Source: a virus | Length of the DNA: 32,872 nucleotides | Strand: one strand, 5' to 3' | IMG/VR virus record: IMGVR_UViG_3300017773_000069 | Location: 1 to 32,872 of that record | Part shown: piece by piece, positions 7,525-32,872 of the stretch | How positions within the stretch are numbered: the first letter of the stretch is position 1 | Layout: the number at the start of each line of letters is the position of its first letter | The notes under the pieces: model-generated | Database searches by the model: none | Told to the model about the DNA's origin: nothing | Seen by the model: the letters and a program-made list of their open reading frames with translations, nothing else | Position numbers and translations under genes: made by a program

Positions 7525-8280
7525 ATGACGGTATCAAGAAAGAGAATAACTGAATACATTTCAAAAATAGCAAACTCTGCCCAAACATCTCACTATCAAG
7601 TATTTTTTGATGGGTTGAGTGTTGACCTGACAAAATTTTTGGGTGGTAAAGGAGTAGATAATCGATTTATTATTGAGGAAGCTGGTCTTCGTTGCAGTAG
7701 TGCCTCTATTCCTGGTAGTTCTCTTGCCACTGCAAATATTGCCGGTAATTATATGGGTGTCCAAGAAAAAATGGTACACTCTAGAATTTTTACCGAAATG
7801 AGTTTAGAATTTTATGTTGATCGAGATTATAAAATAATTAAATTATTTGAATTTTGGATGGACTATATTACAAATGGATCAGAAAATGATAATATTAGAA
7901 AAACAAGGGAAGGATATTTTTATAGAATGAGATATCCCAGAGAATCTGATAGTGGATATAAGTGTGATAAAATTAAAATTATAAAATTTGAACCAAGTCA
8001 AGGAAAAGAACTAGAGTATACATTTTATGGTGCCTTCCCTATAAATTTCTCATCCACACCTGTTCAATATGGTGGTTCTGATGTTTTGAGAGCAAATGTG
8101 ACTTTTAACTATGAAAGATATATTGCCGGAAAAGAAACAAGTATTGCCGAAAAACAAGAAAAGTCTGAAGAAAATTCGGATGCTGCGACAAATAGTAATA
8201 TTTCAGGAACCACCAGTCTTGGATTGACTGGAGCAGGAACACGTAGAGAATTAAATCAATTAAATCAAAATATAGGTTAA
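7525..8280 (+). CDS. Tail-tube-like protein (gp54/gp19 superfamily)
   Basis: A 251-aa protein with the beta-sandwich look of tail tube proteins: YQVFFDGLSVDLTKFLGG, then GLRCSSASIPGSSLATA with the conserved ASIPG, VHSRIFTEMSLEFYVDRDYKI, and TFYGAFPINFSSTPVQYGG. The ~60 C-terminal residues are a polar linker. Such proteins build the tail tube (gp19) or its baseplate adaptor (gp54). Position next to gp26 and the baseplate genes, rather than beside a sheath gene, favours a gp54-like tube initiator, but a tube subunit is not excluded. It follows its own late promoter motif. Confidence 0.72.
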   Translation: MTVSRKRITEYISKIANSAQTSHYQVFFDGLSVDLTKFLGGKGVDNRFIIEEAGLRCSSASIPGSSLATANIAGNYMGVQEKMVHSRIFTEMSLEFYVDRDYKIIKLFEFWMDYITNGSENDNIRKTREGYFYRMRYPRESDSGYKCDKIKIIKFEPSQGKELEYTFYGAFPINFSSTPVQYGGSDVLRANVTFNYERYIAGKETSIAEKQEKSEENSDAATNSNISGTTSLGLTGAGTRRELNQLNQNIG

Positions 8281-8312: not shown

Positions 8313-9035
8313 ATGCCTTTACCAAAGATTGCAACGCCGACATATGAGTTGGAATTACCATCAACCGGAAAAAAGATAAGATATAGACCTTTTTTAGTGA
8401 AAGAAGAAAAGGTTCTTATTATTGCAATGGAATCTGAAGATCAGAAACAGATTACGAATGCCATTAAAACTGTAATTTCAAACTGTATTCTAAGTCGAGG
8501 AGTGAAAGTAGAGCAGTTATCAACTTTTGATATTGAGTATTTATTTTTAAATATTAGAGGTAAGTCTGTGGGTGAGCAGGTTGATGTTCTCATTACATGT
8601 CCTGATGATGAAGAAACACAAGTTCCTGTAACAATTCCTCTTGATGATATTAGAGTCCAAAAAGATCCTGAGCACAGTCGAGATATTAAACTTGATGATG
8701 CTTTGATTATGAGAATGCGATATCCATCCATGTCAGAATTTATTAAATCTAATTTTAGTATTTCTGATGGATCTCTTGGTGTAACTGAATCCTTTGATTT
8801 GATTGCATCATGTATTGAACAAGTCTATAATGAAGAGGAATCTTGGAGTGCCTCTGATTGTACCAAAAAAGAACTTGTGGACTTTATCGAACAATTGAGT
8901 TCTAAACAATTTAAAGAAATTGAAAAATTTTTTGAAACAATGCCAAAATTGTCTCATACAATTACTGTGATGAATCCTAAGACAAAAGTCAAAAATGAAA
9001 TCGTATTAGAGGGTCTGGCATCTTTTTTCGCGTGA
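8313..9035 (+). CDS. 26: gp26 baseplate hub subunit / tail-chaperone-like
   Basis: A 240-aa acidic protein of the T4 base-plate family (T4 gp26, 208 aa). Diagnostic parts are LPSTGKKIRYRPFLVKEEKV (15-34), a helical region with ILSRGVKVEQLSTFDIEYLFLN, and IRGKSVGEQVDVLI (81-94). In T4, gp26 is needed for hub assembly. The last codons carry a slippery heptamer T TTT TTC followed by a hairpin, so a fraction of ribosomes probably shift to -1 and make a fusion of about 301 aa with the next ORF. Its place after a tube-like gene and before a hydrophobic long protein parallels gpG of lambda. Confidence 0.9.
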   Translation: MPLPKIATPTYELELPSTGKKIRYRPFLVKEEKVLIIAMESEDQKQITNAIKTVISNCILSRGVKVEQLSTFDIEYLFLNIRGKSVGEQVDVLITCPDDEETQVPVTIPLDDIRVQKDPEHSRDIKLDDALIMRMRYPSMSEFIKSNFSISDGSLGVTESFDLIASCIEQVYNEEESWSASDCTKKELVDFIEQLSSKQFKEIEKFFETMPKLSHTITVMNPKTKVKNEIVLEGLASFFA

Positions 9036-9065
9036 GTATGGCGCATATTGATCTTGCGTCATACT
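9023..9065 (+). promoter_or_regulatory. Predicted -1 programmed ribosomal frameshift site
   Basis: Slippery heptamer T TTT TTC at 9023-9029, in register with the gp26 codons (TTT 9024-9026, TTC 9027-9029). A 5-nt spacer follows, then a 10-bp stem AGTATGGCGC/GCGTCATACT (9035-9044 with 9056-9065, one G-U pair) with an 11-nt loop. The gp26 stop TGA (9033-9035) lies in the spacer. A -1 shift enters exactly the frame of the ORF at 9032-9217. The stem also buries the ATG at 9038. Confidence 0.7.
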
Positions 9066-9217
9066 ATAAAATTAATTTTTCTTTGATGCAGCACCATAAA
9101 TATTCATTAACGGAGATAGAAAATATGATTCCGTGGGAAAAGGATGTGTATGTGGCACTTCTTCAACAATATATTGAAGAAGAAAACTTAAAACAGCAGC
9201 AAAGAAGTGGCATTTAG
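9032..9217 (+). CDS. Small gp51-like hub assembly ORF, likely -1 extension of gp26
   Basis: A 61-aa ORF (GTG 9032 overlapping the gp26 stop, or ATG 9038) with IDLASYYKINFSLMQHHKY and the conserved-looking IENMIPWEKDVYVALLQQYI. Comparable short ORFs after gp26 in cyanophages are annotated as gp51 baseplate hub assembly catalyst. It is much shorter than T4 gp51, so the name is tentative. There is no ribosome binding site of note, and its candidate ATG lies inside a stable hairpin. Together with the slippery site this suggests it is made mainly as a gp26 fusion through -1 frameshifting, though reinitiation at the GTGA overlap is possible. Overlaps the next gene by 11 nt. Confidence 0.75.
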   Translation: MSMAHIDLASYYKINFSLMQHHKYSLTEIENMIPWEKDVYVALLQQYIEEENLKQQQRSGI

Positions 9218-10877
9218 TAGTCAGGCATTTAAGGCACCACAATTAGGAAGAAAAAGAGTTTCTTTTAAGAAAACTCTTGGTGATGTCGCTCAGTCTGGAG
9301 TAAATCCATCATCAGGAGAATATTTAACCTCAGAAGATAGAAAAGCACTTTTTAGATCAAGAAATATAGATGCTCAGAAAGTTTTTGGAAAATCTGGAGC
9401 ACTTGTAAAATTAGATAATCTCGGACCAATTGTAAAGACAGATCAAGATGAAGATCAGCAGAGTGGATCACAAACAAATGCAGAATCATTAGGATCAAGA
9501 GTCACTGCTCTCGAAAAATCTGTTATCACCATACAGGAATCAGTAAAGAAACTATCAGAATTTCTAGTCGATGATGCAAAGAAAGAACAGCAGTTATTAT
9601 TAAAAGGACAGAAAACTGAAGATATTGCAAAGGAAAAGGAAAAGAGAAGAAGAAAAGAATCTGGATTAGAATCTGTTGCTAGAGGAATTGGAAATACTCT
9701 TATGGCACCAATTAAAGCAATTGGTGGTAAAGTAAAAGGTATTCTGTCTAGAGTATTAGAATTTCTTAAAATTCTTTTTGTCGGTTGGTTGACAGACAAG
9801 GGGGTAAAAGCTTTCAGATCTTACATGAACGGTAATAAAGAAGAATTTGAAAGAATTGGAAAAAATATATTAGGAGCACTCGGTATTGTTATGGGCATTA
9901 TTGCCGGTGTTAATGTTGGTCTGGCAGCAATTCCAGGATTGATTTTAGGTATTCTTCCTACCATTGCCACTCTCGGTGCTGCGATAGTAGGATTTTTATT
10001 ATCTCCTGCTGGATTGACTACACTAGCATTTTTGGGTCTTGCCGGACTTGCTGGGATGGGAATACAGTCGATAGATAAACAAAAATTAAAAAGTGCCTAT
10101 GGCGATAAACAAGAATATATGGATGAAGGTGCCTTTAGTCAAAAACTTTTACTACAATATGGTGGTTCGGCAACCGAAAAGGAAAGGGAAGAAAATCTAA
10201 CACCCAGTGAGAAAAATGAATATGCTTTTCTCAAGGAGTATAATTTAGATCTTCAAAGAAGAGGAGATGCTTTTGATAGAATCAGGGAATTAGAGAAAAA
10301 ACTTCCTGAACTAAAAAAAGCAGCAGATGAAGGTAAAGGAAAACCAGGAGCAGCTATAAAAACAAATAGTTATAATACTGCAAAAACTGATCTTATAAAA
10401 CAAAAGAGAATTTTTAAAAATTCTGATAATAGAGTACAACAGATTAAAAATCAACTTACACTGAAAGGAAAAACTTTAGGAGAGGTAAAAACTGATTTTG
10501 ATTCGGGTAGAATAATACAGACAGGAATAAGTCAGGCTGGAACACCAAGAAGTGCTTATGGTTTAGGGTATTCAATAAAACAAAAAGTAGAACCACAAGA
10601 AGTAACACCAACTCCCACACCAACTCCTCCACCTACACCAACTTCTATAGAGACCCCTATAACATCACCAGTAACCAGTCTTGCTCAGACAAGACAAATT
10701 CCCACACCAGAACCAAAGAAAGAACCAACAGTAATTTTTAGACCTAATCCCCAGGTTCAACAAAAAGAACCTGCATCTGTGACAAATGGAAATAGTGAAA
10801 CTCCAAATATTTCATCATCAAATCCAAATAATTTTTATACCATGTATTCACAAATACAATATAACGTGGTAAGATAA
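9207..10877 (+). CDS. Hydrophobic structural protein, tape-measure candidate
   Basis: A 556-aa protein started by GTG 9207; no earlier ATG fits. Order of segments: basic N-terminus (1-60); predicted coiled coil with SRVTALEKSVITIQESVKKL (97-116) to about 150, with KEKEKRRRK; a hydrophobic helix VLEFLKILFVGWL (183-195); a long Ala/Gly/Ile/Leu-rich block (about 221-286) able to form two or three membrane helices; a charged helical region; and a Pro/Thr-rich stretch (463-480). Coiled coils plus membrane-like helices directly after a tail-chaperone-type gene are the hallmarks of tape measure proteins; T4 gp29 is 590 aa. I infer a tape-measure or hub role but see no direct sequence match. Confidence 0.6.
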   Translation: MAFSSQAFKAPQLGRKRVSFKKTLGDVAQSGVNPSSGEYLTSEDRKALFRSRNIDAQKVFGKSGALVKLDNLGPIVKTDQDEDQQSGSQTNAESLGSRVTALEKSVITIQESVKKLSEFLVDDAKKEQQLLLKGQKTEDIAKEKEKRRRKESGLESVARGIGNTLMAPIKAIGGKVKGILSRVLEFLKILFVGWLTDKGVKAFRSYMNGNKEEFERIGKNILGALGIVMGIIAGVNVGLAAIPGLILGILPTIATLGAAIVGFLLSPAGLTTLAFLGLAGLAGMGIQSIDKQKLKSAYGDKQEYMDEGAFSQKLLLQYGGSATEKEREENLTPSEKNEYAFLKEYNLDLQRRGDAFDRIRELEKKLPELKKAADEGKGKPGAAIKTNSYNTAKTDLIKQKRIFKNSDNRVQQIKNQLTLKGKTLGEVKTDFDSGRIIQTGISQAGTPRSAYGLGYSIKQKVEPQEVTPTPTPTPPPTPTSIETPITSPVTSLAQTRQIPTPEPKKEPTVIFRPNPQVQQKEPASVTNGNSETPNISSSNPNNFYTMYSQIQYNVVR

Positions 10878-20721: not shown

Positions 20722-23700
20722 ATGGCAAAGTATTTTAGTAGTTCTGTTTTAAGTGGTAAGAGAAGAAAACCACCCAGAGACCGAATAGACGATCAGAGAT
20801 ACAGATATATAGGATTAGAAAATGCCGAACCAGATCTTGGTGATCCGTTAGTTGGACCATCATCCGAGGGTGTAAATCCCGTAAAATCTGGTGATCAATA
20901 TATTATTGTTGCTGTCGAAGGTTTTCCTGGAGAGAGATTCTGGATTCCTAATCAGGGTGGATTAATACCAGGATCCATTAGTGTTTTTGATGAAACTAAC
21001 TTAGTAGGATCATTAAGTAGTATCACACAATTAGATTTTCTTGGTGCGGGTGTTAAAGCTACTACTCAAACTGTAAAAGCATCCACATTAAATTTGAGTG
21101 GTAATTTTAGTTTTAGTGAAAACCAAGTAATAACACAAGTTGGTAATACGGGAGTTTCTGGTATTGTAGAATTTTCAACGACAAATGCCGGTATTGTAAC
21201 TCTTACAAATGTTAATGGATCTTTCAACACTTCTGGTGCATTATTGCAAAATGGTGCTGCCACAGGAGTAACTCCATCATCAATTTCAATCTTTAATGAT
21301 CCTAGTATTAGAGCACAGATAGAAGTAACACCTGAGTTTTTCTCTGAAAATAGACAATTTATTTTTAATGACAATGATGAGTTTAATGGAGCATTAAATT
21401 TAACATATAATCAGTCAAATAATTATGTTGGTGTAGGCACGACCGCCGCTACACAAATGCTTCATGTTCAGGGTAATCTCAGACTAACCGGAACAGTATA
21501 TGATACTGAAAATTTACCTGGTGTTGATGGTCAACTTTTAGTAAAGGCAAATTCGGGCACAGACCCTGGATTGAAATGGATTGATCAGGGAAGTTTATCG
21601 GTGGATGCTGCCGGGATTCGTGGTAGTGTTCAATATCATAATGCCGCCGGAAAGATAGGTGGAGCATCTAATTTTGTCTTTAATGACATAAGTGGTGTTA
21701 ATAATGTCGGTATTGGAAGCACTTTACCCAAGGTTGATTTGGATGTTGTCGGTGTTGCATCAATCACTGGAAATTTAAAAGTAGGAACACTTAATGTTCA
21801 AGGTATCTCAACATATGGTGGGAACTTAGATATCAATGCAAGTGTCGATATTTCAACTAATTTAGATGTAGATGGAACCTCTACATTTAAGAATCCGGTA
21901 ATTATAACTGATACTACTGAATCTAATAATACAATCACAGGTGCCTTAACAGTTGCCGGTGGTGTAGGTATTGCAAAAACTGTTCATATTGGAGAATCAT
22001 TAAATCTTTTAGATAATAAAAAGATAAACATTGGTGTTGGTAGTGATTTGCAGATTTATCATGATGGAACAAATTCATATATTGATAACAACACCGGTCA
22101 TTTATACATTAGAAACAATGTAGACGATGATGATGACGGAAATATCTACATTCAGGCAAAATCTGGTGAAGATGGAATTATTCTTAATGATGATGGAGCA
22201 ATAGAACTTTATCACAACGGCGGTAACACCCCAAAATTACTGACTAACAGTGGTGGAGTTGAAGTAAACGGCACTTTAACAGCAGATACTTTTAATGGAA
22301 CTGATAGTTCATTTACTGATATTACTATTACCGTAACTGCCTATATTGCTACTGCTGATGTTGAGACATTAAACATCAATACTGGTGCCGCAATAGCAAA
22401 CATTAATGAAATAAATGCAATCCATACTGATACTGATACTTTAAACGTAGGTATTGCCGCCACCATTTCTAAATTAAAGATCGATAACATTGAAATAGAT
22501 GGTAATAATATTACTGCAAAAACAGGAAATTTGGTTATAAGTGCTGATGGCACTAGTTTTGTTACTATTGATAAATTAGAAATTACAGATATTACCGACT
22601 TTGCTGGTGCAAATGCCGCATTAATTGTTAAAGGTGGTGCTGATATTGATAAGAAGTTAAATGTTGATGGTGTTGTTACCTTCACAAAAGATACAGAATC
22701 TACCAGTCCGACTACAGGTGGTTTACAAATTACTGGTGGTGTAGGTATCGCAAAACGATTAAATGTTGCCGGTATTACCTCAATAACAAACACTACAAGT
22801 TCGACCAGTTCAATAACAGGTGCATTTAAGGTTGCTGGTGGTGTTGGTATTCTTGGTGATCTGAATATTGGTGCGGCAGTTGGATTTGGATCGACAGCAT
22901 TACCTTCGGTCAATGATCATCATGATTTTGGTTCATCATCAAAAAGATGGAAAAATATTCATGCCGAAAAATTTATTGGTACTCTTGAAGGAAGTGCAGA
23001 GAAAACTGATATAACGGCAGATAGTACGAATACAAATAGATTTATTTTCTTAAGTGATATATCTAGTGGTAGTGCAACGGCATTTGGTGATACAGATTTA
23101 ATTTACAATCCATCTGTAAATGCTCTTGGTATTGCAACTGATAGATTTGATAGTCCAATAGGTTCGGATAATACTGGAAAAATTGCTGTTGGTATTGTAA
23201 CCGCACATGAACTGTATGGTGCCTTGAAAGGTAATGCAGATACTGCGACAAAATTATTAAATGCACAAGATTTTTCTATTAGTGGAGATGGAACTGCTCC
23301 TACAATAAGTTTTGATGGAACACAAAATGTTCCTTTTGTTTTTACACTGAATACTGTCAATTCAAATGTCGGTACTTTTGGAAATAGTACAGGAACTGCA
23401 TATGCAAAAGTTTCGGTTAATTCCAAAGGACTAGTTACTGCAGCAGAACATGTAGCTATTAATGGTGATGAAATAACTTCTGGTGAAGCAAAGAATGTCG
23501 CAATTACAGAACAGACAGATTCAACTGCAAAGCATTATATTCATTTTGGTGATGTCATTAATACAGATTTGGCAGATAAAACCACATATGACAGAATTAA
23601 TGTAGATAGTGCAGAACTTGTATATGTCCCTAATACTGGTGTCGGTATTGGAAGCACAGCACCAACGACAAAACTTGATGTTGGTGGCGAATCTAGAACC

Positions 23701-26700
23701 ACAACATTGACAGTTACAGAAACATCTACTTTCAGTGGTGATGTTGATATCAATGCCAATGTTGACATTCAAAATGAACTAATTGTTGATGGTGCAACAA
23801 CACTCGCAAATAATGGTGGAATTACCACGACTGGTGGGGATCTTTATGTTGGTGGTGATTTATATGTTCTTGATGATATTTTCTATGATGAAATTAGTGG
23901 TAGAAATATTGTTATTACAGGTATTGCCACAATAAATCAATTAGAACTAGGACAGGCAAGTGAAACTTTAGTTGGTGTTACTTCTATTGTTGATGAAGAT
24001 AACATGATATCTGATAGTGCCACAGCACTTGCCACTCAACAATCAATTAAAAGATATATCGATGATACTAATGCCGGGCAGTTCCTGAAGTTTTCTGATG
24101 GTGTTTCTATTCCTGGTGGAGGAGGAGGATTTGGTCAAATTAATTTGGCAACAGAGGTATTTCAGGTAAAGGGAACTACAAATGAAGTTAGGACAACTGT
24201 CATAGATGTTAATAGTGAAGGTGGAAATTTAGCTAATCAAATACAAATAGGATTGACAACTGACGTTACAATATCTGGTAATTTTACATCCGGTACTGAT
24301 GTTAATGAAGATGTTATAACTATAAATTCCAAATTTAATTCTGACCTTCTTCCAAATGGAAGTCAAGATATTGGTGCTAGCGATAATAAATGGGCAAATG
24401 TTTATGCCACAACAATTCATTTTGACACTGGTAAGGGTAATAGTGATTCTGCATCAAAATTACAAACACCCAGATTAATTACTCTGGGTGATAATGATGA
24501 TACTTATAGTGCCGGAGTTTCTGATGATATTGTTTCTATCGGAAGAACATTTGATGGATTTCAAAATGTCGGATTCGCACTGTCATTAACAGATACTGGT
24601 GTAACTGGAGGCACCTATGGAGATGCAGATACGGTTCCTAAAATTACTGTCGATGCCAGAGGTAGAATTAGTGTTGCTGAAAATATAACTATATCAAATG
24701 ACAGAAATGTTTCTACGGCAAGTTCTTTAGAAACATCAAGAAACATTGCTGCGACAGGTGACATTGTATGGGATGTTGATTTTAAGGGTCATGAAAATGT
24801 AAGTTCTGGTGCGACTCTGGCAACAGTCAATACAAGCTCCGGAGTTCCACAGGCAGGAGACGATGATGAGGATGCCGGTGGATCATTTGGTAACAGCACT
24901 ACTATTCCAGTAGTCACAATTAATAAAAAAGGATTAGTTACTGCCGTAACAACAGAAAATGTCACGACCGTTCCAAATGCAGTAACTGCAAATAGATTAG
25001 CATCGGCTCAAACAATTACTTTAGGTGATGGCACAGAAGATGATATTATTTCTATCGGAAGAACATTTGACGGGTCTCAAAATGTCGGATTCGCACTTAC
25101 TTTAAAGGATGTTGGTCCTGGTGCAGGAAATTATGGTGGAGAGAATAAATTAATATCACTAGATCTTGATGCTAAAGGAAGAGTTACTGGGGTAACAAGT
25201 ACAGCTATTGATTTTAGTCTTGCAACTGTTGCAACTGCAGATGCTCTAACAGTTTCAAGAAAAATTAAAGCAACGAATGACATCTCATGGGAAGTTGACT
25301 TTAAGGGTGATAGTGACGTTGAAGCTGAAGCAACTTTAAAGACTATTGATACATTACCCAATGACCTCACTGCAGCATTTGGTAGTGACACTCAGATTCC
25401 TAAAGTAAAACTTGATGATAAAGGTAGAGTAATTGAAATCGAAAACGTCGGAGTTGACTTTAATACTGCCACAGTTAATCAATCAAAGAAAATAAAAGTT
25501 ACAGAAAGAGATAATAATTCAAAACATTTTCTCACGTTTATTAGTAGTGACTCAGAACCTCTTCCCACTGCCTATTATGATTTATATGGTGATGATGGAC
25601 TGGAATATAATCCTTCTTCTAACTTATTGAGCGTAGGTAACCTTAGTTTATTTGGAACTAACTTAAATCCTAGTCTTTCGGTAAACGGAAATACACAATT
25701 AAATGGAAATACCACTCTTGGAGATGCTGATAGTGATACAGTAACCTTTACGGCAAAAGTCAACAGTAGTATTCTCCCATCTCATAATGCTGATTCAGAT
25801 ACTGATACTGATGGATTAGATATTGGTGGTGCGGACGACAACTTCCGTGTCGTTTATGCTAAAAAATTTGAAGGTGTTCTCCTTGGTAATTCAGAATCAG
25901 CTTCAAAATTAGATCCTGGTAAAAAAATAAATCTGGGTGGTGATGTAACTGCCACAATGACGGCACCTTTTACTGGTGAATCTGATATTACTCTTAACAC
26001 CACTTTGAGTAGTATATCAGGTTTGACACAAGGACCGTATCCTGGCAATCCTACTTTAGGAGATACAGGACTTGTTCCGACATTTACTGTTGATTCAAAA
26101 GGAAGAATAACTGTGGCAGGTAGTTATACTCCGACACTTCCTTCTAGTAATTTGCAATTAAATGGAAGAAATACAGCTATCTTATTTAATGATAATAATT
26201 CTGTCGGATATGCTGGTGGTTTTAGTGTAATAGAACGCACAAGTGGTGGATTGATTGGTACGACATTTCAAATAGATACTGTCGCTCTTACACCGATAGG
26301 GGGAGGAAATCCAGGAACTCTTCCAGCAATAAGATATCATGGGAAACTTCAAAATTCCACAGTATTAAGAATTTCTGGCAATAACAATCATTATTATGCT
26401 GATGATGGATTTAGTATCCTCTATATGGGAGCAAGATCTGATAATGCTGCTTCTCTTTCAATTTTTTCAGATAATCAAAATTTTGCGAGTCAAATAGAGG
26501 CAGTCAATATTCTTCAAAATGGAAATATTGGATTTGGAGTTGTTCAAACTGATGGATCTGTTGCTGAACATGCTATTCCAGATGATGGTGGAGGTGTCAT
26601 AACCGCAGGTAAAGTAAAGGCAAGAGAGATAGAAGTAACTGGTGATATTAAGGTCACAAATGTTACTGAACTTGCCGGAATTGGTTTTACTAATCTATCT

Positions 26701-27723
26701 GATACCCCAACAACTTATAGTGAATCTAATGGATATTATGTTAAGGTAAGTGGAACTGAATTGGTATTTGATGAACTTACGGCAACTGATATTAATCAAT
26801 CGAGTTTAACAAGTTTCATCAATGGTGCAAATGGATATACTGTCACACAGAATGATGTTACTCAACATCAATCAAGTCTATCCATAGGTGGATCTCAAGT
26901 TACTAATATTCCCACTAGTAATATTACAGATTTCAATACTGATGTAAACAATTTAATTGAATCTAATACTAATATAGATGGAAATAATATTAGTAATTTA
27001 GAAACAATAATTAATAATACAGTTGAAGATACTAATACAACATACGACTTATCAGTTTTATCTGGAACAACTAAAATTAGATTATCGGGAACTAATAGTA
27101 CAAATGATGATGTCGAAATTGCTGCTGGAGGTGGAATATCTGTAACTAGAAATAATTCTGGTAAATTAACAATTACAAATACTGATAAAGGATCTTCTGT
27201 TACGTCAGGACTTCAAAATGGCGATAACGCTCTATTTACATCAATAGAATTGAAAAGAGCCGATGGATCTTTTATTGACTGGAAAAATACTGATGGAGAT
27301 AATGCTGATGATTATGATATTAGACTAGATAATTTTAGTGAATACGTTCTTAACCTTTCAGGTTATGGTGGTAATACTGCTCAATTAAAAGTAGAAGGTA
27401 ATATTACCGCATTTACTTCTGACATTAGACTGAAGACAGATATAGAACCAATTAAAAATGCTCTTGAAAAAGTTCAATCAATTCGTGGATTTACATACTC
27501 TCATAATGAAACTGCCAAAGAATTAGGATTTAAAGATGAAAGAAGATGGTCTGGTGTATCTGCACAAGAAATTGAAAAGGTATTGCCAGAGGCAGTGTTC
27601 CCGGCTCCTGTCGATGATAAGTATTTGACGGTTCAATACGAAAAACTTGTTCCTCTCCTGATTGAAGCGATCAAGGAACTCAAGGAAGAGGTCAATGACC
27701 TGAGGTCTCAGATTGGGGGTTGA
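20722..27723 (+). CDS. Giant tail fibre with S74 self-cleaving chaperone (2333 aa)
   Basis: N-terminal ~90 residues are a non-repetitive adaptor (MAKYFSSSVLSGKRRKPPRD). The shaft has several repeat types: three GGVGI blocks (about 411, 674, 711), an IYHDGTNSYIDNN segment near 445, RW/KW-x-NxxA modules near 735, 1215 and 1703, and six modules with VP-x-I-x-VD-x-KGRI between about 884 and 1800. The end is a Peptidase_S74 intramolecular chaperone: SDIRLK with Ser2233 and Lys2238, GVSAQEIEKVLPEAV, YEKLVPLLIEAIKEL, and a terminal coiled coil. The chaperone trimerises and folds the fibre, then cuts itself off before the Ser, leaving about 2232 aa. Probably host-receptor binding. Confidence 0.9.
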   Translation: MAKYFSSSVLSGKRRKPPRDRIDDQRYRYIGLENAEPDLGDPLVGPSSEGVNPVKSGDQYIIVAVEGFPGERFWIPNQGGLIPGSISVFDETNLVGSLSSITQLDFLGAGVKATTQTVKASTLNLSGNFSFSENQVITQVGNTGVSGIVEFSTTNAGIVTLTNVNGSFNTSGALLQNGAATGVTPSSISIFNDPSIRAQIEVTPEFFSENRQFIFNDNDEFNGALNLTYNQSNNYVGVGTTAATQMLHVQGNLRLTGTVYDTENLPGVDGQLLVKANSGTDPGLKWIDQGSLSVDAAGIRGSVQYHNAAGKIGGASNFVFNDISGVNNVGIGSTLPKVDLDVVGVASITGNLKVGTLNVQGISTYGGNLDINASVDISTNLDVDGTSTFKNPVIITDTTESNNTITGALTVAGGVGIAKTVHIGESLNLLDNKKINIGVGSDLQIYHDGTNSYIDNNTGHLYIRNNVDDDDDGNIYIQAKSGEDGIILNDDGAIELYHNGGNTPKLLTNSGGVEVNGTLTADTFNGTDSSFTDITITVTAYIATADVETLNINTGAAIANINEINAIHTDTDTLNVGIAATISKLKIDNIEIDGNNITAKTGNLVISADGTSFVTIDKLEITDITDFAGANAALIVKGGADIDKKLNVDGVVTFTKDTESTSPTTGGLQITGGVGIAKRLNVAGITSITNTTSSTSSITGAFKVAGGVGILGDLNIGAAVGFGSTALPSVNDHHDFGSSSKRWKNIHAEKFIGTLEGSAEKTDITADSTNTNRFIFLSDISSGSATAFGDTDLIYNPSVNALGIATDRFDSPIGSDNTGKIAVGIVTAHELYGALKGNADTATKLLNAQDFSISGDGTAPTISFDGTQNVPFVFTLNTVNSNVGTFGNSTGTAYAKVSVNSKGLVTAAEHVAINGDEITSGEAKNVAITEQTDSTAKHYIHFGDVINTDLADKTTYDRINVDSAELVYVPNTGVGIGSTAPTTKLDVGGESRTTTLTVTETSTFSGDVDINANVDIQNELIVDGATTLANNGGITTTGGDLYVGGDLYVLDDIFYDEISGRNIVITGIATINQLELGQASETLVGVTSIVDEDNMISDSATALATQQSIKRYIDDTNAGQFLKFSDGVSIPGGGGGFGQINLATEVFQVKGTTNEVRTTVIDVNSEGGNLANQIQIGLTTDVTISGNFTSGTDVNEDVITINSKFNSDLLPNGSQDIGASDNKWANVYATTIHFDTGKGNSDSASKLQTPRLITLGDNDDTYSAGVSDDIVSIGRTFDGFQNVGFALSLTDTGVTGGTYGDADTVPKITVDARGRISVAENITISNDRNVSTASSLETSRNIAATGDIVWDVDFKGHENVSSGATLATVNTSSGVPQAGDDDEDAGGSFGNSTTIPVVTINKKGLVTAVTTENVTTVPNAVTANRLASAQTITLGDGTEDDIISIGRTFDGSQNVGFALTLKDVGPGAGNYGGENKLISLDLDAKGRVTGVTSTAIDFSLATVATADALTVSRKIKATNDISWEVDFKGDSDVEAEATLKTIDTLPNDLTAAFGSDTQIPKVKLDDKGRVIEIENVGVDFNTATVNQSKKIKVTERDNNSKHFLTFISSDSEPLPTAYYDLYGDDGLEYNPSSNLLSVGNLSLFGTNLNPSLSVNGNTQLNGNTTLGDADSDTVTFTAKVNSSILPSHNADSDTDTDGLDIGGADDNFRVVYAKKFEGVLLGNSESASKLDPGKKINLGGDVTATMTAPFTGESDITLNTTLSSISGLTQGPYPGNPTLGDTGLVPTFTVDSKGRITVAGSYTPTLPSSNLQLNGRNTAILFNDNNSVGYAGGFSVIERTSGGLIGTTFQIDTVALTPIGGGNPGTLPAIRYHGKLQNSTVLRISGNNNHYYADDGFSILYMGARSDNAASLSIFSDNQNFASQIEAVNILQNGNIGFGVVQTDGSVAEHAIPDDGGGVITAGKVKAREIEVTGDIKVTNVTELAGIGFTNLSDTPTTYSESNGYYVKVSGTELVFDELTATDINQSSLTSFINGANGYTVTQNDVTQHQSSLSIGGSQVTNIPTSNITDFNTDVNNLIESNTNIDGNNISNLETIINNTVEDTNTTYDLSVLSGTTKIRLSGTNSTNDDVEIAAGGGISVTRNNSGKLTITNTDKGSSVTSGLQNGDNALFTSIELKRADGSFIDWKNTDGDNADDYDIRLDNFSEYVLNLSGYGGNTAQLKVEGNITAFTSDIRLKTDIEPIKNALEKVQSIRGFTYSHNETAKELGFKDERRWSGVSAQEIEKVLPEAVFPAPVDDKYLTVQYEKLVPLLIEAIKELKEEVNDLRSQIGG
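24523..24580 (+). repeat. Direct repeat in the fibre gene, copy 1
   Basis: This 58-bp segment matches 25039-25096 at 54 of 58 positions, exactly 516 bp (172 codons) apart. It encodes DDIVSIGRTFDGFQNVGFA. High DNA identity points to a recent duplication or recombination of a fibre module. Confidence 0.85.
25039..25096 (+). repeat. Direct repeat in the fibre gene, copy 2
   Basis: Second copy, encoding DDIISIGRTFDGSQNVGFA, in frame with copy 1. The sequence between copies is less similar than the copies themselves. Confidence 0.85.
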
Positions 27724-28534: not shown

Positions 28535-31500
28535 ATGCCTCTGAATAAGTTAGAGAACTTTCTTAAGAATGCAGAAGGTCGTATACTATATGTTAGTCCG
28601 GCAGATCTTGACTCTACTGACAGCATATTAAACCAGGGTAATTCCCAAACCAAACCGTTTAAAACTCTGCAGAGAGCACTAATTGAAGCTGCGAGATTTT
28701 CCTATAATGTTGGAAGAAATAACGATACTACAGAAAAAACCACAATTCTTCTCATGCCTGGTGAGCATGAGATTGATAATCGTCCGGGACACACAATACA
28801 AGACGATGGAAGTGGTGCATTTGTATTAAAAACACCTGATGGAAGCACTGTAGGAGATAGTACTTTAAACCTTGAATTAGAGAGCAATTTTGACTTAGCT
28901 CAAGAAGGTAATATTCTTCATAAATTCAATAGTGTGCATGGTGGGGTTATTGTCCCTAGAGGAACTTCTATTGTCGGTCTAGACTTAAGAAAGACAAAGA
29001 TAAGACCTAAATATGTTCCTAACCCAACCGACGATACTGTACCATATTCTGCTCTTTTCAGAATAACAGGTGCTTGCTATTTCTGGCAGTTTAGTATTTT
29101 TGATGGAGATGAATTAGGAAAGGTATACACTGATGACAAAAATTTTGATAATGTAATAAATCAGGTACAACCAACCTTCTCTCACCACAAACTTACTTGC
29201 TTTGAATATGCTGATGGTGTAAATGATGTTGGATCATCAGGTCTTACAGACCTTGATATGTATTATTATAAACTGTCTCGTGCATATAATGCGGCATCCA
29301 ATAGAAATATTCAAGAAAAATTTTTACAGGATGGGGAAGGAACTGGATTGGATGGTTTTGCGAAACAGAGACCGGAATGGGAAATTGTTGGTGCATTTGC
29401 AAATGATCCTATAGTAATTACAAGAATACAATCTGGATCTCTTCCGGGTGTTCCCACCAATCAAATAACAGTTACTACTCAAGGAGCACATAACTTATCT
29501 GTAGGAACTCCAATTAAGATTAAGGGAGTAGGTAGATCAGAATATAATATTTCAACAAAGGTAGCATCAACTGATCCAGTTCGTAATGATAAATTTACTT
29601 ATACACTGCCTGATTTTCCTCTTGATCTTGAAACAGAACCTGCTGTTGATGGTGCCTTAATAACTATCGAAACTGATACGGTTTCTGGTGCCTCACCATA
29701 TATTTTTAATATCTCCTTACGATCTGTATGGGGTATGAATGGAATGCACGCTGATGGTTCTAAAGCATCAGGTTTCCGTTCAATGGTTGTGGCACAATTT
29801 ACCGGTGTCTCACTCCAAAAAGATGATAGAGCTTTTGTAAAATATAATATTAGTTCTAGAAAATATGAAGGTCTTAATCAAGATACAGTAAAAGGAACGA
29901 CACTTGCTTTAGAATCTTCATCTACAAATACTGCTCAGATTTATCATTTAGATTCGGATGCAATTTATAGAAATGATTGGCAGACTATTCATGTTAAGAT
30001 AACAAATGATGCAATCTTACAGATTGTTTCTGTGTTTGCTATTGGATATGCAAAACATTTTGAAGCTAAAAGTGGTGGTGACGCATCAATTACAAACTCC
30101 AACTCCAACTTTGGTCAGTTAGCATTAGTTTCTGATGGATTTAGAAAAGATGCATTTAAGAAAGATGACAATGCATTTATAACTCATATTATTACACCAA
30201 AAGCAATTACAACTGTCGAAGAAGATGTTGAGTGGGTACAACTTAGTGCTACTACTGATGCTAATACTAATAGATTATATCTATTTGGATATGATTCAGT
30301 AAATATCAAACCACCCTCTCTCACACAAGGATTTAGAGTTGGTGCAAGAAATACTGATAAGTTATATGTGAGTATTAATGATGTGGTTTATAAAGCTGAC
30401 ATTAAAATGTCTAATGCCGCAGCATCAAGTGCAAGGAGATCTGTCAATATATCTACGGTTGAAGGAAATACCGGTATTTTTGAATCCTCTTCAGATCATG
30501 GTTTTACGACAGGAGAAAAGGTTATTATTATCGCTGATGATGGTGATTTACCCGAAAAAATTCTTGAACACAAAGTTTACTTTGTCATATCTGGAGGAAC
30601 TTTAACAACTACTCAACTTCAATTAGCATTATCAAAATCTGATGCCGATAATGCTGTTGCGATAAAGAATACTTATATTTCAGATGCAACCAAACTTAAA
30701 GTCATAAGTAGAGTAACAGATAAAGAATCTGGAGATGTAGGACATCCAGTTCAATATGATACCACTAACGGATGGTATATTACAACCAATTCTAATTCTG
30801 ATATTCGTTCTCAAATAGTATTAGGTAATGTCAGCACAAAGACTGAGATATCATTCTTTAAGAGAATTGCTGATACTAGAAGTTTAGATGATAAAATATT
30901 CAAGACAAGAGTATCAATCCCAAAAGAAGTTCAAAATGGAAAGAATATCCAAAATGGATTTATTCTTCAAGAATCTTCTCAGACTGGTGTAAGAACTGAT
31001 GGTGATTTAACCCTTAATAGAACTTTAACTGCATCTGATTTTGCATTTAGTAGAAATCAGAGATTTATTAGTAGTTGTACTTTTAACAATGGAAATGGAA
31101 AAATTACGGTAGTATCAGAACGTCCTCACAATTTACAAACTAATGATTTAGTTAAAATTGATGCAATAAGACATTCTGCAAATACTGAAGGAACTTCTGA
31201 AAAAGGTTATAATGTGGAGGCAAGTGTCACTGTTGTTGACAACATGACATTTACGTATAATGCACCAATAACAATAAGCACACAACCAACTAATGATTTT
31301 ATACTTGATAAAACAACTGTCAGTTCTGCATCATCATTACCTAGATTTACAAGAAAAGATTTAAGATCAAATCTTTATTTCTTCAGAAATGATATAATTT
31401 CAGAATATGATGAAGGTGTAGAAACTGGTGTATATCATGGATATCAATTATTTTCAGATTTTGCTATTCCAGAAGAATTTACTAATAACAAATATAGTCA

Positions 31501-32872
31501 GACAGTTGTTGATTTGTATCCACAATTAGATCGTGACAACACAAATGATACTCCCACTTCTGCAAAATCATTTGCTCTTAGAGCACCTTTAGGAAAAGTT
31601 GTAACCAATGATCTCCAGAAGAGTATTACAAAAGAATCTGTTGATGAATTACTCGTTAAATTTGGATCTGCAATAAAAATATCTTCAGAAACTGGTGGAG
31701 TTATAACACTTGAAAGGAATCATAACCTTTGTGGTATTGCACATGGAGTATTACATAGTAATAACTCTGGAATGAATAATGGAACATATGAAAACGTAAA
31801 AATATTTGAAGGACCGGTTGATTCAGGTATTTGGAACGGATCTCTAGGAAAAGTCACTGTTACTGGTGGAGAAATAACTGCCTATGAAATTACAAATCCA
31901 GGTTCGGGATTTGTGGCAGGTCAATATGGACATTGGGATTATAGACTCATTGGTGGTTCAGATGGTGCCGCTAAATTAGGAACTAGTGACAGTGCGGCAC
32001 TTGCAAATAAAAATTTAACATCTTCACCAGATAATCTTGTCATACAAGTCACTGGTTCTGGCATCACGACCGATGCATATTTTAGAACTACTAATGTACT
32101 CCAACCCAACACAATTAGTATTGCAAAAACCGCAGGTGATCCTGATATTACTTCAGATCAATATGTTTTTGTTGTCGGACGTGCCGTAAAATCTCAGTTA
32201 ACAAATGTTGGAACCGGTTATAATTTTGATGATTATGATAGTATTCCTCACGGGTTAAAAGTAGGAAATAGATTCCAATATAATGATGAAAATAATAATA
32301 AAGTAGGAACATTTATTGTTACTGATTTTGGTAGTGCAAGCAATCCCACTGCTCAATTATCCTCTCTTAAGGCAAAGTTAGAATCTTCAGAAGATGTTGG
32401 TGCTCTTTATCAGAATGGGCATATTCTAAAGCACGGACTATCTGCAAATGATGCCGATTCCGGAAAAGATGATGAAAATCTTGATGTAAGAGGAGTTCCA
32501 CTTCATGGTCTCGAAAATGCTAAACTTACCTCAACTCCTGTTGCCACCAGCACAACAATAAGTTTAGGTTCTCTAGTTACAGGTGCTCAACACGGTATGG
32601 GAGTCAGATTCCCACAAGGAAGTTATATTCAAATTGATGATGAAATATTAAGAATTGCATCTTCCACTAAATCAGTAACCGGTGATGTGTTGAACAATGT
32701 TACCGTTATTCGTGGTGTATTTGGAACACAAGCGACATCACATTTACCAAGTTCCTTGGTTACAAAATTAAGTCCAATACCATTAGAACTGCACAGATAT
32801 TCAATTCTTCGTGCATCTGGACATACATTTGAATATCTTGGATATGGTCCTGGTAACTATTCTACGGCACTT
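28535..32872 (+). CDS. Giant virion structural protein, 3' end outside window
   Basis: An open frame of 1446 codons from ATG 28535 with no stop before the window end, so the true protein is longer. It starts MPLNKLENFLKNAEGRILYV and continues with KPFKTLQRALIEAARFSY and TTILLMPGEHEIDNRPG, a pectin-lyase-like (right-handed beta-helix) opening seen in very large cyanophage structural proteins. Further on are H-N-L/H-G-F beta modules (about residues 318, 651 and 870), TNSNSNFGQLALVSDGF (about 522-538), a GSGFVAGQYG segment, and finally HTFEYLGYGPGNYSTAL at the window end. Parts match the 1070-aa protein. Likely a tail or baseplate surface component. Confidence 0.85.
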   Translation, partial: MPLNKLENFLKNAEGRILYVSPADLDSTDSILNQGNSQTKPFKTLQRALIEAARFSYNVGRNNDTTEKTTILLMPGEHEIDNRPGHTIQDDGSGAFVLKTPDGSTVGDSTLNLELESNFDLAQEGNILHKFNSVHGGVIVPRGTSIVGLDLRKTKIRPKYVPNPTDDTVPYSALFRITGACYFWQFSIFDGDELGKVYTDDKNFDNVINQVQPTFSHHKLTCFEYADGVNDVGSSGLTDLDMYYYKLSRAYNAASNRNIQEKFLQDGEGTGLDGFAKQRPEWEIVGAFANDPIVITRIQSGSLPGVPTNQITVTTQGAHNLSVGTPIKIKGVGRSEYNISTKVASTDPVRNDKFTYTLPDFPLDLETEPAVDGALITIETDTVSGASPYIFNISLRSVWGMNGMHADGSKASGFRSMVVAQFTGVSLQKDDRAFVKYNISSRKYEGLNQDTVKGTTLALESSSTNTAQIYHLDSDAIYRNDWQTIHVKITNDAILQIVSVFAIGYAKHFEAKSGGDASITNSNSNFGQLALVSDGFRKDAFKKDDNAFITHIITPKAITTVEEDVEWVQLSATTDANTNRLYLFGYDSVNIKPPSLTQGFRVGARNTDKLYVSINDVVYKADIKMSNAAASSARRSVNISTVEGNTGIFESSSDHGFTTGEKVIIIADDGDLPEKILEHKVYFVISGGTLTTTQLQLALSKSDADNAVAIKNTYISDATKLKVISRVTDKESGDVGHPVQYDTTNGWYITTNSNSDIRSQIVLGNVSTKTEISFFKRIADTRSLDDKIFKTRVSIPKEVQNGKNIQNGFILQESSQTGVRTDGDLTLNRTLTASDFAFSRNQRFISSCTFNNGNGKITVVSERPHNLQTNDLVKIDAIRHSANTEGTSEKGYNVEASVTVVDNMTFTYNAPITISTQPTNDFILDKTTVSSASSLPRFTRKDLRSNLYFFRNDIISEYDEGVETGVYHGYQLFSDFAIPEEFTNNKYSQTVVDLYPQLDRDNTNDTPTSAKSFALRAPLGKVVTNDLQKSITKESVDELLVKFGSAIKISSETGGVITLERNHNLCGIAHGVLHSNNSGMNNGTYENVKIFEGPVDSGIWNGSLGKVTVTGGEITAYEITNPGSGFVAGQYGHWDYRLIGGSDGAAKLGTSDSAALANKNLTSSPDNLVIQVTGSGITTDAYFRTTNVLQPNTISIAKTAGDPDITSDQYVFVVGRAVKSQLTNVGTGYNFDDYDSIPHGLKVGNRFQYNDENNNKVGTFIVTDFGSASNPTAQLSSLKAKLESSEDVGALYQNGHILKHGLSANDADSGKDDENLDVRGVPLHGLENAKLTSTPVATSTTISLGSLVTGAQHGMGVRFPQGSYIQIDDEILRIASSTKSVTGDVLNNVTVIRGVFGTQATSHLPSSLVTKLSPIPLELHRYSILRASGHTFEYLGYGPGNYSTAL

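Follow-up and report, generated by a model that had tools for sequence, protein, structure and literature searches.

We propose that genes 26 and '51' of a T4-like, cyanophage-type marine virus are one tail assembly chaperone (TAC) gene that is decoded two ways, a reading to which we assign a probability of roughly 0.9. Judging from the sequences of this phage and its relatives, a backward slip of the ribosome by one base is very probable towards the 3' end of gene 26. The proposal draws on gene layout, conservation, covariation, homology and fold similarity, and from these we infer the slippage, its rate and its role in assembly. The main idea, that TACs of T4-like phages are made by frameshifting, is already known from work that later papers credit; the covariation, the internal Shine-Dalgarno (SD) element and the explanation of 'truncated' and 'missing' gp51 proteins are apparently new.

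Gene layout and the proposed frameshift junction

The window, by which we mean the whole stretch of DNA analysed, is a 32.9-kb fragment (32,872 nucleotides) whose nearest named relatives are Synechococcus phage S-SKS1 and Prochlorococcus phage P-SSM2. The features relevant here are as follows.

7525..8280, + strand: tail tube protein gene (PF23849 Phage_TTP_2, E 6.8e-19; phrog_45 tail tube, E 3.1e-38)
8313..9035, + strand: gp26, read as TAC-N, the 240-aa 0-frame product (PF12322 T4_baseplate, E 3.4e-77)
9009..9013, + strand: internal Shine-Dalgarno-like GAGGG, proposed frameshift stimulator (codon-usage excess of GAG)
9023..9029, + strand: putative slippery heptamer T_TTT_TTC in the gp26 register, one codon ahead of the stop (sequence)
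9033..9035, + strand: gp26 0-frame stop TGA (sequence)
9035..9045, + strand: 5' arm of the putative stimulatory stem, AGTATGGCGCA, 5 nt past the heptamer (fold and covariation)
9055..9065, + strand: 3' arm of the putative stimulatory stem, TGCGTCATACT (fold and covariation)
9029..9217, + strand: -1-frame extension, 62 aa plus stop, read as the C-domain of TAC-NC (phrog_634, E 9.4e-29; phrog_150 positions 241-278, E 1.4e-5)
9207..10877, + strand: next gene, 556 aa, candidate tape measure protein (position; hydrophobic block at about residues 217-285)

The product of gene 26 passes the gathering score of Pfam PF12322 (T4_baseplate) with 259 bits against 24.5, and the 3' end of the gene reads GAG GGT CTG GCA TCT TTT TTC GCG TGA. 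The 61-aa ORF at 9032-9217, annotated elsewhere as 'gp51', lies -1 relative to gp26, and its GTG (9032) overlaps the gp26 stop (GTGA). An earlier note on this DNA had described a -1 frameshift signal here, and its heptamer at 9023-9029, in the gp26 register and followed by a 5-nt spacer, was recovered base for base. Its further points, that a -1 slip leads into the frame of the 61-aa ORF, with a predicted fusion of 239 + 62 = 301 aa, and that the hairpin would hide the ATG at 9038, which falls inside the stem arm 9035-9045, also hold. The hairpin itself was correctly placed and has 11 bp (9035-9045/9055-9065) rather than the 10 bp given there, and the inventory of heptamer, spacer and hairpin had missed the SD-like GAGGG.

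The -1-frame extension has its T4 homologue in the final ~48 residues of gp51. By itself, the 61-aa ORF drew only chance matches from Pfam, and Rfam returned no match over its gathering score. Towards the other end of the window, a 1446-aa ORF (28535-32872) runs off the end of the DNA after a 2333-aa ORF (20722-27723); both are probably large tail or fibre proteins.

Conservation of the heptamer

The heptamer alone is no evidence, because TTTTTTC occurs in the window no more often than chance would give (19 against 21 expected). The case for a putative slippery site is instead carried by its register, position and conservation, which we followed through 80 viral contigs near the window, 99 more found via distant queries, and named phages. 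The closest loci (L001-L082) vary neither in the heptamer nor in its register or its distance of one codon from the stop, and each of them has the gp51-like ORF in the -1 frame. Across all single-gene loci an in-register T_TTT_TTY is present in 178 of 179 (T_TTT_TTC in 138, T_TTT_TTT in 40), with the gp51 homologue in the -1 frame and the stop 0, 1, 2 or 8 codons past the heptamer. When the proteins are clustered at 80% identity, 71 of 72 clusters keep it. The in-register heptamer is found in Kyanoviridae, in the Straboviridae KVP40, Aeh1, S13, VmeM-32 and Aswh_1, and also in pf16, Ochrobactrum OC and Stenotrophomonas Yut3. In a marine subgroup (L112, L127, L139-L155) the gp26 stop lies eight codons past the heptamer, inside a hairpin GCCTCT..TAG..AGAGGC.

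This conservation exceeds what the amino acids need. Phe-Phe is invariant in the gp26 alignment (50 rows), and TTT makes up 73% of Phe codons in gp26 bodies; given the amino acids and codon usage, agreement of 71 of 71 clusters has p ~10^-25.6 if the clusters are independent, and as they are partly related, shared ancestry raises the true probability above that figure. Two-gene T4-type phages serve as a control. None of the 12 has T_TTT_TTY towards the 3' end of gene 26, and the seven that keep Phe-Phe (T4, RB69-type, Enterobacter, Klebsiella KP185, Proteus, VR5 and Serratia X20) write it as TTC TTY after GAR. Because two-gene phages with Phe-Phe never use T_TTT_TTY, it is the codons, not the residues, that track the one-gene arrangement.

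One lineage departs from this pattern: Vibrio phage K369 (L090) retains the two ORFs, has no heptamer in register and shows a TAATG stop-start overlap; Vapseptimavirus VP-1 (Vibrio, L201) resembles it in all these respects. Homologues of this kind are what the earlier note had named as evidence against its reading, and they occur in this lineage, set against the 178 of 179 single-gene loci that retain the heptamer. In the K369/VP-1 lineage either the frameshift has been lost or a single-tRNA slip is used. VP-1 carries GTTTTTC, which may be compared with the GTTTTT motif of Vandenendeviridae.

A covarying stem downstream of the heptamer

The stem comprises 11 bp with one G.U pair and a 9-nt loop, and it begins 5 nt past the heptamer. 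The RNA fold of 9030-9090 has an energy of -16.3 kcal/mol (z -2.76), and 2 of 200 dinucleotide shuffles folded at least as well. Across 55 distinct cyanophage-like junctions, a set that excludes a subgroup with a differently built CCCTC/GAGGG-type stem, 90% of cells in the 11-bp stem are paired, compared with 26-43% when the stem is slid. The same junctions contain 24 double-change cells against 7.6 in shuffled data, and none of 500 shuffles reached that number.

The strongest sign of covariation comes from the pair 9043/9057. In the -1 frame, base 9043 is the synonymous, hence free, third base of an Ala codon, and a change in its 3'-arm partner alters the protein. The 5' Ala codon (GCT, GCG or GCA) matches the 3' codon (GAG, GCG or GTG) in 47 of 48 cases, as T-A in 29, G-C in 11 and A-T in 7. 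The G-C type arose repeatedly, the gp26 tree demanding at least 5 changes on branches with good support. Pairing accounts for the way in which the Ala third base tracks its 3' partner; protein constraint does not. These patterns argue for a downstream, putatively stimulatory structure with covariation in the cyanophage-like group.

The hairpin weakens to a median z of -1.0 outside the cyanophage-like loci, where the heptamer and the -1 ORF stay. Distant relatives have other stems (GCCTCT/AGAGGC, GCCTGT/ACAGGC) or none, and the heptamer therefore appears to be the constant part of the signal and the hairpin an enhancer specific to the lineage. An alignment of this junction across relatives, as the earlier note had suggested, accordingly bears out conservation of heptamer and register throughout, and the covarying stem in the cyanophage-like group only.

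An internal Shine-Dalgarno-like element

GAGGG sits 9 nt 5' of the heptamer and 18 nt from the GTG of the small ORF. Of 46 clusters (80% identity), 36 use GAG for its Glu, against a GAG share of 28% in gp26 bodies (binomial p 2e-12). Where Glu is instead encoded by GAA, the next codon is often GGG, which accounts for just 6% of Gly codons elsewhere, so that codon choice at Glu-Gly retains an SD-like GAGG or AGGG beyond what codon usage would give. Signals of the dnaX type have an internal SD 9-14 nt upstream. Because an internal SD can act as a stimulator of -1 frameshifting (PMC5009743), we propose from its placement that GAGGG serves frameshift stimulation, as in dnaX, rather than initiation of the small ORF.

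Probable identity as a tail assembly chaperone

An AlphaFold2 model of gp26 (pLDDT 86.7, pTM 0.79) has as its top PDB match the HK97 tail assembly chaperone 2ob9 (Z 7.9 over 84 residues, model 1-86), followed by YqbN 3klu (Z 7.2) and 5ir0 (Z 5.3), with clearly unrelated structures from about Z 4. A Z of 7.9 is of a size that a common arrangement may produce, and we regard the predicted fold match as one of moderate strength; the best Foldseek hit for the model was not significant (E 0.97), and a sequence search of solved structures gave no real match. A tail tube gene, as found here directly 5' of gene 26, is the canonical neighbour of a TAC gene. Vladimirov, Gautam and Davidson reportedly identified T4 gp26 and gp51 as T4-like TACs. 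In T4 both proteins are listed as hub assembly chaperones, and gp51 is required yet absent from the particle (PMC3004832). Because of the HK97 fold match, the tail tube gene upstream and this chaperone listing, the gp26/gp51 pair is best read as TAC-N/TAC-NC. The suggestion that the pair acts like lambda G/GT, made before these comparisons, is backed by the HK97 match and by the structure of T4 gp51 described below.

The 556-aa product of the next gene found no family match in Pfam or PHROG, and hydropathy gives it a central hydrophobic block; by position and this block it is a likely candidate for the tape measure protein. A route to that identity through T4 gp29 was rejected, as gp29 forms a Pfam family of its own (PF25671), for which no link to the 556-aa ORF emerged.

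The two-gene arrangement of T4

T4 gp26 and gp51 are both full-length members of PF12322 (E 8.8e-64 and 3.9e-52). Residues 1-201 of gp51 match the family, and about 48 further C-terminal residues, absent from gp26, match the family of the -1 ORF; by sequence comparison T4 gp51 is a gp26 paralogue carrying the same extension. T4 shares its arrangement of separate genes 26 and 51 with eleven further T4-type phages. On an unrooted tree, single-gene gp26, two-gene gp26 and gp51 form three groups with the minimum possible number of changes, with the caveat that KP15 sits on long branches. In this Klebsiella phage (L200:1501-2795) genes 51 and 26 are in tandem on one strand, compared with the divergent order of T4, which is possibly an older stage of the duplication; near its end, KP15 gene 26 has an in-register T_TTA_AAG. 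The single-gene form spans cyanophages, KVP40- and Aeh1-type Straboviridae, pf16 and others, and with so wide a spread one duplication on the T4 line is therefore the simplest account.

It seems reasonably likely that in the cyanophage branch a dnaX-like three-part signal of internal SD, T_TTT_TTY and covarying hairpin sets the TAC-N:TAC-NC ratio, that over most of the T4 superfamily only the heptamer forms the constant core, and that an ancestor of the T4 clade swapped the signal once for a gene duplication, after which the heptamer decayed.

Proposed decoding and alternatives

We propose that most ribosomes stop at the TGA at 9033 and yield gp26 (TAC-N), and that a fraction would slip by -1 near the end of gene 26 and add the gene 51 segment to give the long form, TAC-NC. 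The two forms would then bind the tape measure protein in tail or hub assembly and later be shed, as lambda G and GT are.

The main competitor is translational coupling, in which the small ORF would be translated as a protein of its own by re-initiation, either at the GTG (9032) overlapping the gp26 stop or at the ATG (9038). The GTGA overlap itself, an ATG as fourth codon in 50 of 125 distinct -1 ORFs, the present annotation of the small ORF as a separate gene and the TAATG overlap of K369 are all what coupling would predict. Against this, the first 13 codons past the slip contain neither ATG nor GTG nor TTG in 41 of the 125 ORFs, so that initiation in these would cut into the conserved core LSHxSLExYYxTNFALMQHHKYSL. 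At 18 nt from the GTG, GAGGG is also beyond ordinary initiation distance, the ATG would be buried in the covarying stem, an in-register T_TTT_TTY would be unnecessary, and T4 has the same C-terminal domain solely as part of gp51. We therefore consider coupling improbable. The start-less ORFs, together with the conservation of heptamer and register and the stem covariation, support the -1 frameshift that the earlier note had read here.

If protein constraint alone were at work, T TTT TTY would be kept for Phe-Phe, whose invariance across the 50 alignment rows would fit, and the stem would be a chance or coding effect; this is already contradicted by sequence comparison, as the 7 of 12 two-gene phages with Phe-Phe never encode it as T_TTT_TTY and the synonymous Ala third base follows its partner, and we give it hardly any credence. 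Equally implausible is transcriptional slippage, by which the T run would yield mRNAs of varied length and from them the fusion. A run of T6 or T7 exists, but the bacterial cases described involve 9 A or T in a row (PMC5009743). Register, stem and internal SD would moreover be unnecessary, yet all are kept. Frameshifting by the ribosome remains the reading we prefer.

Relation to known systems

The heptamer of lambda G/GT differs from T_TTT_TTC, and the spacings of the elements in E. coli dnaX resemble those of the window signal. Lambda makes short and long chaperone forms by frameshifting (Xu, Hendrix and Duda 2004), as proposed by analogy for the window phage, which differs in its strong covarying stem and internal SD and in a gp26 far larger than its ~86-residue TAC-like domain. 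With dnaX it shares an upstream internal SD (for its role, PMC5009743), a slippery heptamer and a hairpin shortly 3'; the dnaX heptamer is A_AAA_AAG in contrast to T_TTT_TTC, the gene is unrelated, and the shift there shortens the product, whereas the window shift would lengthen it.

T4-like TACs are described as having one short and one long fused form (Vladimirov, Gautam and Davidson 2022, Virology 566:9-15, PMID 34826709, as cited by PRFect, PMC10885494, and in PMC12846349), and poly-T -1 signals in T4-like TAC-N genes are credited to the same work (PMC12846349). The earlier note's statement that it knew of no such report for the gp26/gp51 pair is thus outdated. T4 itself has two forms from two genes and no heptamer; the window phage would have one gene and a frameshift. 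The TAC of Vandenendeviridae (Pseudomonas phage Adele), as presented in PMC12846349, likewise has a poly-T -1 frameshift at the end of TAC-N, an uninterrupted -1 frame and an extension annotated as a separate hypothetical gene; it differs in its GTTTTT motif, and in the parts of that account available to us no covarying stem or SD is described.

Our literature search found no description of the covarying stem or the internal SD, and none linking the reduced gp51 of cyanophages and vibriophages or the 'missing' gp51 of Aeh1 to frameshifting; further papers citing Vladimirov et al. that the search covered held nothing on cyanophage frameshifts. The -1 extension is unannotated in the Straboviridae records of Aeh1 (L202:2274-2450), S13 (L204), VmeM-32 (L205) and Aswh_1 (L088), though heptamer and ORF are present.

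Implications

Cyanophage gp51 has been described as about 20% of the length of T4 gp51, and gp51 as missing in Aeh1 (Sullivan et al. 2010, PMC3037559). Frameshifting would explain both, and the 'truncated' and 'missing' proteins would be annotation artefacts. In many deposited genomes of cyanophages and the T4 superfamily, half of a fused protein would then be annotated as a stand-alone 'baseplate hub assembly catalyst'. If our account of the duplication is also true, T4, with its genes 26 and 51, is a natural case of two genes standing in for the frameshift, and recoding and duplication would offer a clean comparison of two routes by which phages obtain both forms of a chaperone.
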